Below, piece by piece: positions 10,262 through 12,672 of a stretch of 35,902 bases of DNA (the first letter of the stretch is position 1; every line of letters begins with the position of its first letter). The notes under the pieces were generated by a model. It saw nothing but the letters and a program-made list of their open reading frames with translations. It searched no databases and was not told the origin of the DNA. The stretch is from positions 1 through 35,902 of IMG/VR virus record IMGVR_UViG_3300030385_001836; one strand, given 5' to 3'. The stretch comes from a virus. The position numbers and the translations under genes were made by a program.

Positions 10262-10332
10262 AGCCAGAAGGTAACAAACATAAGTTCGTCAATTCAGTTA
10301 TACACCGTCCAATGAAATGCCGCAAGATATAA
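10240..10332 (+). CDS. Possible 30-aa frame after a degenerate leader
   Basis: The bases AAAACTGGATGA resemble the AAAACAAGGATGA leader of the early genes. The ATG inside opens a 30-codon basic frame (MRVKIPKQPEGNKHK...) ending at 10332, inside the 3' end of the amidase gene on the other strand. It may be a remnant of an early gene cassette or chance. The ribosome binding site is weak. Confidence 0.2.
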   Translation: MRVKIPKQPEGNKHKFVNSVIHRPMKCRKI

Positions 10333-10963
10333 GCATCTCTTTTATCTCGTCCTTGGTGTGGTCCCTCATTTTCCCTCGTAATTTATCCAGCACCGCCTCC
10401 CTAAATTGCTCCATCCGAAGGTAGACCCCCGGACATCTCTTCATTGGGTCTTTAGTGGCTCCGGGCAGCTCAGTATGACCCCAGATATCTATTGACCCCA
10501 GATGCAGACTGAGGAGGCAGCAGAGCTGGTACAGGGCACTTTTCTGGTAGGGTGTAGGGTGCTTGTGATTGAAGTCTCCGCGCAGAGCTATGGCGATACT
10601 CTTGGAATTCCACCGACGTGCGTGGGCACCGCATTCGTCTAAACAAAGTGCCTGTTCAGTCTTGTCAAAGTCGATAATGAGGTGGTACGGGTTCGCGCCT
10701 CCGGTAAGGCCGAGCCGGGGATGCGTCTGGAACCATCGGCAAACGTGAAGGGCGAAGCTATGACTTTTATCTGTATGTGCATGTTCTGTATTGCAATAAT
10801 GGCAATCATTCACTCTGCAATCTAAATCTGGACCTATCCGGTGGACTACAATCTTTTCCGGGCGCAATAGGGCCTTATAGCGCCCGTCATCCACAGCACG
10901 AATTTGATTGACAACGTGTAAGTCGAACAGATCCATCTCCTCCCCATTAGGTAAAATAACCAT
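10298..10963 (-). CDS. N-acetylmuramoyl-L-alanine amidase, endolysin (Amidase_2 type)
   Basis: The Amidase_2 pattern is clear: KIVVHRIGP near residue 41 (first zinc histidine), PYHLIIDFDK, then SIAIALRGDF, then IWGHTELPG and KRCPG holding the later zinc ligands. The enzyme cuts between MurNAc and the stem peptide to lyse the host. I start at 10963, 16 bases after the stop of the upstream -1-frame reading frame. No good ribosome binding site is present, so coupling is likely. The frame stays open to 11164 and would add a positively charged, hydrophobic N-terminus (residues LAEWIYSWITAICAYL) like a signal-anchor, but its codons look like a shadow of the overlapping frame. The holin lies just upstream. 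Confidence 0.85.
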   Translation of the reverse strand: MVILPNGEEMDLFDLHVVNQIRAVDDGRYKALLRPEKIVVHRIGPDLDCRVNDCHYCNTEHAHTDKSHSFALHVCRWFQTHPRLGLTGGANPYHLIIDFDKTEQALCLDECGAHARRWNSKSIAIALRGDFNHKHPTPYQKSALYQLCCLLSLHLGSIDIWGHTELPGATKDPMKRCPGVYLRMEQFREAVLDKLRGKMRDHTKDEIKEMLISCGISLDGV

Positions 10964-10979
10964 AGGAAGGGCGGGTTCG

Positions 10980-11177
10980 TCAAAAATCCCAGCGGATTCC
11001 TCCACTGGCGGCGTAACCTTTATCGGAGGCCCAAGCCTCGGCGGTCGCGGAGAGGTTCCGCGCAATACGGTGTAGGTACCGGGCACCGACAAGTAGGCGC
11101 ATATCGCGGTAATCCACGAGTAGATCCACTCGGCCAAGCTTCTCAGGAAGAGCCTCCGCTTCATCCAGCGCAGCCAC
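10980..11177 (-). CDS. -1-frame reading frame between holin and amidase, possible holin extension
   Basis: This frame encodes about 65 residues that read like a real protein (ALDEAEALPEKLGRVDLLVD, then RYLHRIARNLSATAEAWASD), with G-rich first codon positions. Its only early start is a GTG at 11177 without a ribosome binding site. The frame is open further back across the holin stop to a slippery A AAA AAG at 11198-11192, so it may be made only as a -1 frameshift extension of the holin. I do not recognise a family. The alternatives are a separately translated gene coupled to the holin stop, or an A-run sequencing error that split a single 161-aa protein. Confidence 0.5.
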   Translation of the reverse strand: MAALDEAEALPEKLGRVDLLVDYRDMRLLVGARYLHRIARNLSATAEAWASDKGYAASGGIRWDF

Positions 11178-11185
11178 GATCTGAC

Positions 11186-11464
11186 TTAGGACTTTTTTGT
11201 TTTTTTGGGCCCTTCGTGGAGGATAGTGAGTGCCTGTGCATCAACTGCAAGCTGCTGTGCCTTAAGCTTTGTGCGCGATGCACCATACCCAAGAGACGCG
11301 AGACAAGTACCTGCGACCCCCAATATAGCAAGTGTGAGAGGACTCTCGACATACCCACTATTTTGCACCACTTCTACGATTGCCGCCAAAATTGGCAAGA
11401 CGATACTGGTAATGATGGCTACTTTCGCCAGCTTATGTTCCGAAGTATTTTTCCCGTCTTTCAT
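11186..11464 (-). CDS. Holin, two membrane segments (92 aa)
   Basis: Two hydrophobic segments lie at about residues 12-33 (AKVAIITSIVLPILAAIVEV) and 42-61 (LTLAILGVAGTCLASLGYG), with a charged N-terminus and a basic C-terminal tail, the form of a class II holin. It would form inner-membrane holes that release the endolysin coded next. I start at ATG 11464; a TTG at 11476 overlapping the previous stop is possible. The last codons (AAA AAA ACA AAA AAG TCC TAA) contain a dnaX-type frameshift heptamer, which may give a longer second product. Confidence 0.75.
   Translation of the reverse strand: MKDGKNTSEHKLAKVAIITSIVLPILAAIVEVVQNSGYVESPLTLAILGVAGTCLASLGYGASRTKLKAQQLAVDAQALTILHEGPKKTKKS
11192..11215 (-). 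promoter_or_regulatory. Candidate -1 programmed frameshift site
   Basis: In the holin frame the heptamer A AAA AAG spans 11198-11192, the same slippery sequence used in E. coli dnaX. A Shine-Dalgarno-like GAAGGG lies at 11215-11210, 11 bases upstream; in dnaX a similar element about 10 bases upstream stimulates shifting. The stop follows two codons later, and the -1 frame stays open for 70 codons. A strong downstream stem-loop is not obvious; only short CTTC/GAAG pairings are visible. Confidence 0.5.
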
Positions 11465-12110: not shown

Positions 12111-12442
12111 TATTTTCTCCTCTTAACCTTAAGGGATTTTCTGCTTCTCTCCTTGGCCGCAGCCGTCTTCGCTCGTTTCTTTCTTTTGGATGGAGAATCA
12201 GGCTTGGGTGCTGGCATTCCTGTCGGACTAAATATAAGTTGTGAACCCAATGCCGTCTTGTGCCAGCGAGTATCTCCCATTCCCGGAATCCTCACATTGT
12301 CAGACTTCCAAGTCATAGAAGACATACCAGAGGAGCGAGGCTTACTCAGACTGACACCCTTAAGGCCTCCCCTTTTCTGGGTAGCCTTTACAGACTTGGC
12401 TAGTCTTGGCCCTAGATTTACTAATTTCTTTTTCTTCGCCAT
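12110..12442 (-). CDS. Highly basic protein, unknown function (110 aa)
   Basis: The N-terminal 30 residues and the C-terminal 30 residues are Lys/Arg-rich (PSKRKKRAKTAAAKERSRK), flanking a core with Trp and Gly (MTWKSDNVRIPGMGDTRWHK). It probably contacts nucleic acid or is packed in the virion, but I do not recognise a family. GAGGAG precedes the ATG, and both its start and its stop are TAATG overlaps. Confidence 0.65.
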   Translation of the reverse strand: MAKKKKLVNLGPRLAKSVKATQKRGGLKGVSLSKPRSSGMSSMTWKSDNVRIPGMGDTRWHKTALGSQLIFSPTGMPAPKPDSPSKRKKRAKTAAAKERSRKSLKVKRRK

Positions 12443-12672
12443 TACTCACTCCTCAAAATATGATCTAGTATTAGTTTAACATCATCGTGTATATCTGCCT
12501 GTCTTACTTCCATAGATCTTAGTCGGCTGTCTAGCTCTTGGTGGGTTCCCGCATGAACGGACTTCTCCACAAACTTGTAGCCAGTGCTGCAAGGTGACGC
12601 GACTGCCATAAAGGAAGCCGTACTCACCATAACCGCCAGTATCTTTCCCCACGATGCAAACCACTCAGGCAT
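12442..12672 (-). CDS. Single-pass membrane protein with coiled-coil tail, possible lysis accessory (76 aa)
   Basis: Residues 5-27 form one hydrophobic segment (WGKILAVMVSTASFMAVAS) followed by an exposed helical tail (LDSRLRSMEVRQADIHDDVK) that should coil. This form fits a second holin-like or spanin-like protein. A cysteine at residue 28 follows ASP rather than a proper lipobox, so lipidation is unlikely. It precedes the relay of small genes that leads to the holin and endolysin. Its stop overlaps the next start as TAATG. Confidence 0.55.
   Translation of the reverse strand: MPEWFASWGKILAVMVSTASFMAVASPCSTGYKFVEKSVHAGTHQELDSRLRSMEVRQADIHDDVKLILDHILRSE

Follow-up and report, generated by a model that had tools for sequence, protein, structure and literature searches.

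Frameshifting into the -1 frame at the heptamer A_AAA_AAG is textbook molecular biology. It is one of the three heptamers most prone to shifting in E. coli (PMC4066793), and in the dnaX gene of that organism (tau/gamma) it is accompanied by a Shine-Dalgarno (SD)-like sequence upstream (PMC3711429, PMC4066793). Among phages, -1 slippage is employed by tail-chaperone and capsid genes (PMC7881722, PMC3091744, PMC6316719): for the chaperones of lambda (G/GT) and P2 (E/E+E'), and for T7 10A/10B, slippage near the end of the gene gives a minor form extended at its C terminus (PMC3091744, PMC7881722). Two forms of a small membrane protein are also made from single lysis genes, as in the holins S105/S107 of lambda and 24.1/24.1* and 26/26* of SPP1, but these differ at the N terminus through the use of two start codons (PMC6316719, PMC3091744). 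The lysis gene L of MS2, whose expression is tied to an overlapping frame, was once ascribed to frameshifting and afterwards to the ending of translation on the overlapping gene, and it has a start of its own (titles cited in PMC5009743). A search of the open-access literature gave no report of a frameshift in a holin or lysis gene, an absence that is weak evidence; as far as that literature shows, the slippage mechanism and two-form holins made from dual starts are known, and recoding in a lysis-cassette gene would be new.

The locus considered here lies in a stretch of 35,902 nucleotides (IMG/VR record IMGVR_UViG_3300030385_001836, positions 1 to 35,902; the whole of it is called the window), which also encodes a terminase, portal, major head protein, internal virion protein, exonuclease and Sak4-like gene, and therefore belongs to a tailed phage, podovirus-like by gene content. 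On the minus strand, a gene for a 92-aa protein (11464..11186, from ATG at 11464 to the stop TAA at 11188-11186) stands directly upstream of an Amidase_2 endolysin gene, whose core occupies 10298..10963 on the same strand with a likely start at about 10963 (PF01510, E 6e-10; above the gathering score, at 40 bits against 26 in the window and 46.7 in L028, one of the relatives described below). The 92-aa protein has hydrophobic segments at aa 15-33 (KD 2.63) and aa 43-61 (KD 1.61). Searches of Pfam and PHROGs with the proteins of both clades discussed below placed it in no family and returned only weak non-holin matches, and for this reason we call it holin-like. The initial annotation had called it a holin; as a small protein with at least one transmembrane (TM) segment (two are predicted) next to an endolysin gene it suits that name, and it is a predicted holin by its position and TM segments. 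Upstream of this gene, at 12442-12672 (minus strand), is encoded another candidate lysis protein, of 76 aa, which has a single TM segment near its N terminus (KD 1.67), a possible coiled coil and no match in a PHROGs search.

Read directly from the minus strand, the last codons of the holin-like frame are ACA AAA AAG TCC TAA, which places A AAA AAG at 11198-11192 in the register for -1 slippage, as the initial annotation had it; every coordinate that it gave was exact. From GTC (11192-11190) the -1 frame then stays open over 70 codons, as far as TGA (10982-10980), giving an extension at 10980..11192 (minus strand; VLSQIVAALDEAEALPEKLGRVDLL...GGIRWDF*), and the predicted products of 161 aa (91+70, shifted) and 92 aa (unshifted) agree with what had been claimed. 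Heptamer, register and an upstream SD-like sequence are all as in E. coli dnaX, whose shifted product is, however, the shorter one and whose site is followed by a hairpin; at the present locus slippage would lengthen the protein, and the sequence behind the site shows no hairpin that convinces. The SD-like sequence of the window, GAAGGG (11215-11210, minus strand), does lie 11 nt upstream of the heptamer, but its proposed role as a stimulator fared less well, since it is not among the SD motifs proven to stimulate slippage (listed in PMC4066793). By the test of a stimulatory SD motif 6-17 nt upstream, a listed motif (AGGA, GGAG or GGNGG) was found 11-13 nt before the heptamer in all eight relatives, and so in eight of nine sequences with the window included; the relatives have GAAGGA, AGGAG, GGGAG or GGGGG in place of GAAGGG. 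The anti-SD energy upstream of the heptamer is -4.5 in the window and -5.7 to -9.9 in the relatives, values equalled at 1-22% of background positions. RNA folding downstream of the slip site gave z values of 0.39, -0.80, -0.53 and -2.28 in clade 1, and with both clades folded there was no convincing hairpin at the usual position and no structure common to the two; a stem in three clade 2 sequences begins well beyond the usual 4-10 nt from the slip site. A downstream stimulatory structure is not always present in prokaryotes (PMC4066793), and the P2 E/E+E' site is without a hairpin (PMC3091744, PMC7881722).

Taken singly, the window sequence could owe its heptamer and open -1 frame to chance: AAAAAAG is not rare by itself, occurring 16 times in the window against 10.3 expected, and a 66-codon stretch is open in a given alternative frame of real genes of this window in about 2-3% of cases. 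What lifts the arrangement above chance is its conservation in eight relatives, together with purifying selection in the -1 frame. An amidase scan yielded three close relatives (L001, L002 and L003; 83-90% identity), which with the window make up clade 1 (four sequences), and an amidase-motif pattern and profile scan yielded a second clade (L027, L028, L032, L033 and L042; amidase identity 48-58%). All are IMG/VR records. A further second-clade member, L030, is without the site and so falls outside the eight site-spanning relatives; L027 and L033 are the same over the -1 extension, which leaves eight distinct extension sequences among the nine. Among named phages, nothing matched the amidase and no hit to the clade 2 long form was credible; genome scans found nothing.

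Whether heptamer, register and -1 frame are conserved in related phages was the question posed by the initial annotation, and A_AAA_AAG is kept in the -1 register, with an open -1 frame behind it, in all nine sequences, although between the clades the holin-like proteins have only 37-40% identity. It had also named a single uninterrupted frame in homologues, or loss of the -1 frame in relatives, as findings that would count against it, and each was seen in none of the eight. The heptamer is 0-1 codons from the 0-frame stop in every relative: in clade 2 the stop TAG follows directly, and in clade 1 one codon intervenes before TAA or TGA (TCC TAA, TCC TGA), so that three kinds of stop context accompany an invariant heptamer. 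The A run is 6 long in clade 1 and 7 in clade 2. The -1 frame has 70 codons in clade 1 and 73 in clade 2, with the same end point in 9/9, and finishes in every site-spanning sequence with a Gly-Gly motif and a final aromatic residue. The two clades also share sequence just before their diverged holin-like genes: upstream of 4701 (plus strand) in L002 of clade 1 and of 6499 (minus strand) in L028 of clade 2 there is a common gene end and ribosome binding site, GTTACAGACGTAGG...TATAAGGAGAAAACATG, as if the lysis module had been swapped as a unit.

That the -1 frame codes for protein under purifying selection follows from its pattern of change. Clade 1 substitutions fall at -1 codon positions 1, 2 and 3 in proportions of 12.4, 4.2 and 19.4%; by the chi-square test, the distribution of variable columns over these positions has p 0.0036 in clade 1 (16/5/23) and p 0.077 in clade 2 (31/23/41). 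For the -1 frame, pairwise dN/dS lies between 0.16 and 0.27 in clade 1 and between 0.31 and 0.53 in clade 2; frame 0, by comparison, gives 0.47-1.02, and in the third frame most values exceed 1. The counting behind these values is simple and takes no account of the overlap, so that they rank the frames rather than give the exact strength of selection. The constrained frame is thus the -1 frame and not the overlapping frame 0, and frame 0 as the sole coding frame is ruled out by the codon-position pattern and dN/dS. Between clades the tails are 15-23% identical and recognisably homologous only in their last 13 columns; a common function for them is assumed here. An identical block of about 41 nt at -1 codons about 40-53 in L028 and L042, which are divergent elsewhere, extends over synonymous positions of that frame; recombination, an RNA element and constraint from a second frame are candidate readings of it.

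The 70-aa tail has no TM segment by hydropathy and no family match, and the best hit of a fold search (E 3.5) amounts to no match. AlphaFold models of it, based on few sequences, are helical and of low confidence (pLDDT 63 and 51), and, by a topology drawn from the sequence, the tail is predicted to lie on the cytoplasmic side of the membrane. An outer-membrane beta-signal at its C terminus (GGIRWDF, GGLKFTW; one Pfam Phage_OMP match, E 0.12) was considered and is not supported, because the models give low-confidence helices and the C terminus is predicted to be cytoplasmic.

How might ribosomes enter the -1 frame? We favour, with a probability of roughly 0.8, a dnaX-type -1 frameshift at the end of the holin-like gene, giving a short and a long protein; the conserved heptamer, register and -1 frame, with the selection on that frame, support this reading of the initial annotation, and slippage from the holin-like frame would be the simplest route. 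The same products could come from RNA polymerase slipping on the A run, so that mRNAs with an extra A were read through into the long protein, and the runs of 6 or 7 A offer it a place; but programmed transcriptional realignment has been described for A runs of more than 7 (PMC3711429), and both the AAG that ends the run in codon register and SD motifs at a spacing that acts on ribosomes make this improbable. Another reading dispenses with fusion and makes of the -1 frame a separate small gene, reached by reinitiation after the holin-like stop. Clade 1 does have a GTG at -1 codon 6 (11177 in the window), kept in 4/4 sequences about 9 nt past the 0-frame stop, though with an SD energy of -0.4 to -2.2 kcal/mol, in effect no real SD. 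In clade 2, which has the same layout, there is no ATG, GTG or TTG in the first 68 of 73 codons, and ahead of the slip the -1 frame is open for only 13-25 codons; in this clade 2 departs from MS2 L with its own start. Independent initiation is therefore nearly excluded, and was rejected on the strength of clade 2, in line with the earlier claim that the -1 frame has no ribosome binding site of its own. Since a separate gene would also leave the invariant in-register heptamer unexplained, we consider it quite improbable.

What the initial annotation left unmentioned is that frame 0 between the holin-like stop and the amidase (10964..11164, minus strand, in the window) is also open in 9/9 sequences, is joined to the Amidase_2 frame and overlaps the -1 extension. 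This sets the locus apart from the tail chaperones and T7 10A/10B, as does the gene concerned, which encodes a two-TM protein beside an endolysin where theirs serve tail assembly or the capsid. Given the -1 protein and random synonymous codons, frame 0 is open in 0.4-8% of trials (P 0.004-0.08 per sequence); comparable windows are open across real genes of these phages in 0-3.6% of cases; and the probability of its staying open along the observed divergence is 0.12-0.31 per pair, the three estimates not being independent of one another. Together they suggest that stops are kept out of frame 0, although its amino acids are little constrained. Might the overlapping frame be the real one, encoding from ATG 11164 a membrane-anchored, N-terminally extended amidase, with the open -1 frame as a by-product? 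The ATG is conserved in clade 1, and an opening in all nine sequences is unlikely by chance. However, second codon positions of frame 0 are its most variable (21%), its dN/dS is as given above, no segment exceeds the hydropathy cut-off used, the SD is weak (-1.5) and clade 2 has no ATG matching 11164; nor was selection for a signal anchor seen in frame 0, the hydrophobicity of which is not above a codon-shuffled null in clade 1 and marginal in clade 2. We judge this reading very improbable. An assembly error in the A run, splitting one 161-aa gene, can be set aside almost entirely: homopolymers are error-prone, but the same break occurs in nine contigs (eight of them from other IMG/VR records) with three stop contexts, and no uninterrupted homologue was found among the recovered relatives.

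The probable start of the amidase core lies 10-16 nt past the -1 stop, where an in-frame ATG or GTG stands in 9/9 sequences (with a weak SD or none); amidase homology between the clades begins nearby, near aa 74-80 of the ORF. In the window this likely start is an ATG 16 nt beyond the -1 stop, at about 10963; L002 and L003 have GTG. The next in-frame ATG, at 10936, has an SD-like GGGGAG that is strong in clade 1, though only 3 nt away, and with it amidase translation in clade 1 may not need coupling. In both clades, and in each of the nine sequences, the Gly-Gly codons a little ahead of the -1 stop read GGAGGA; this is a perfect SD core and might hold ribosomes for a restart on the amidase. 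The -1 frame of clade 1 ends TTT TGA C (10979-10985, minus strand, in the window), a type of context known from the RF2 +1 site, from which a +1 slip would lead into the amidase frame. Fusion of the tail into the amidase by this means was set aside; the context is seen only in clade 1, clade 2 ending in TGG TGA or TGG TAG. About 1.8 kb beyond the intact amidase gene on the L001 contig (G011), a short ORF (L026; 2874-2945, plus strand) repeats the last 24 amidase residues and is 58% identical there to the protein of the window.

Under the dnaX-type frameshift, ribosomes on the holin-like gene would reach A_AAA_AAG just ahead of the stop, and most would terminate to give the 92-aa protein. A fraction, restrained by the upstream SD-like contact, would slip to -1 and append a soluble 70-aa tail, predicted to lie on the cytoplasmic side, to give the 161-aa protein. 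The two forms, unlike those of the lambda and SPP1 holins, would thus differ at the C terminus, through recoding. Both forms would carry both TM segments, and the long form is therefore expected to co-assemble with the short at a fixed ratio in one membrane assembly. Its likeliest function would be to pace hole formation, a suggestion that we hold tentatively and at rather less than even odds. Translational coupling is suggested by the start codon 10-16 nt after the -1 stop in 9/9 sequences: slippage might also feed translation of the endolysin, as shifted ribosomes would end just short of its start, and this we consider plausible without thinking it probable. A broader and more doubtful proposal makes of the slip site a ratio switch for the whole lysis cassette, setting both the proportion of short to long holin-like protein and the dose of endolysin, while a second open frame over the same DNA would be kept for an amidase with an N-terminal extension; were it true, three or four lysis products would come under the control of a single heptamer.

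When lysis occurs depends both on how much endolysin is supplied and on the ratio of holin forms. Recoding at a conserved site placed as here would offer a further means of setting that ratio, beside the use of two start codons, and, if the frameshift is real, annotation pipelines overlook the long form and put the amidase start in the wrong place in this group of uncultured viruses.
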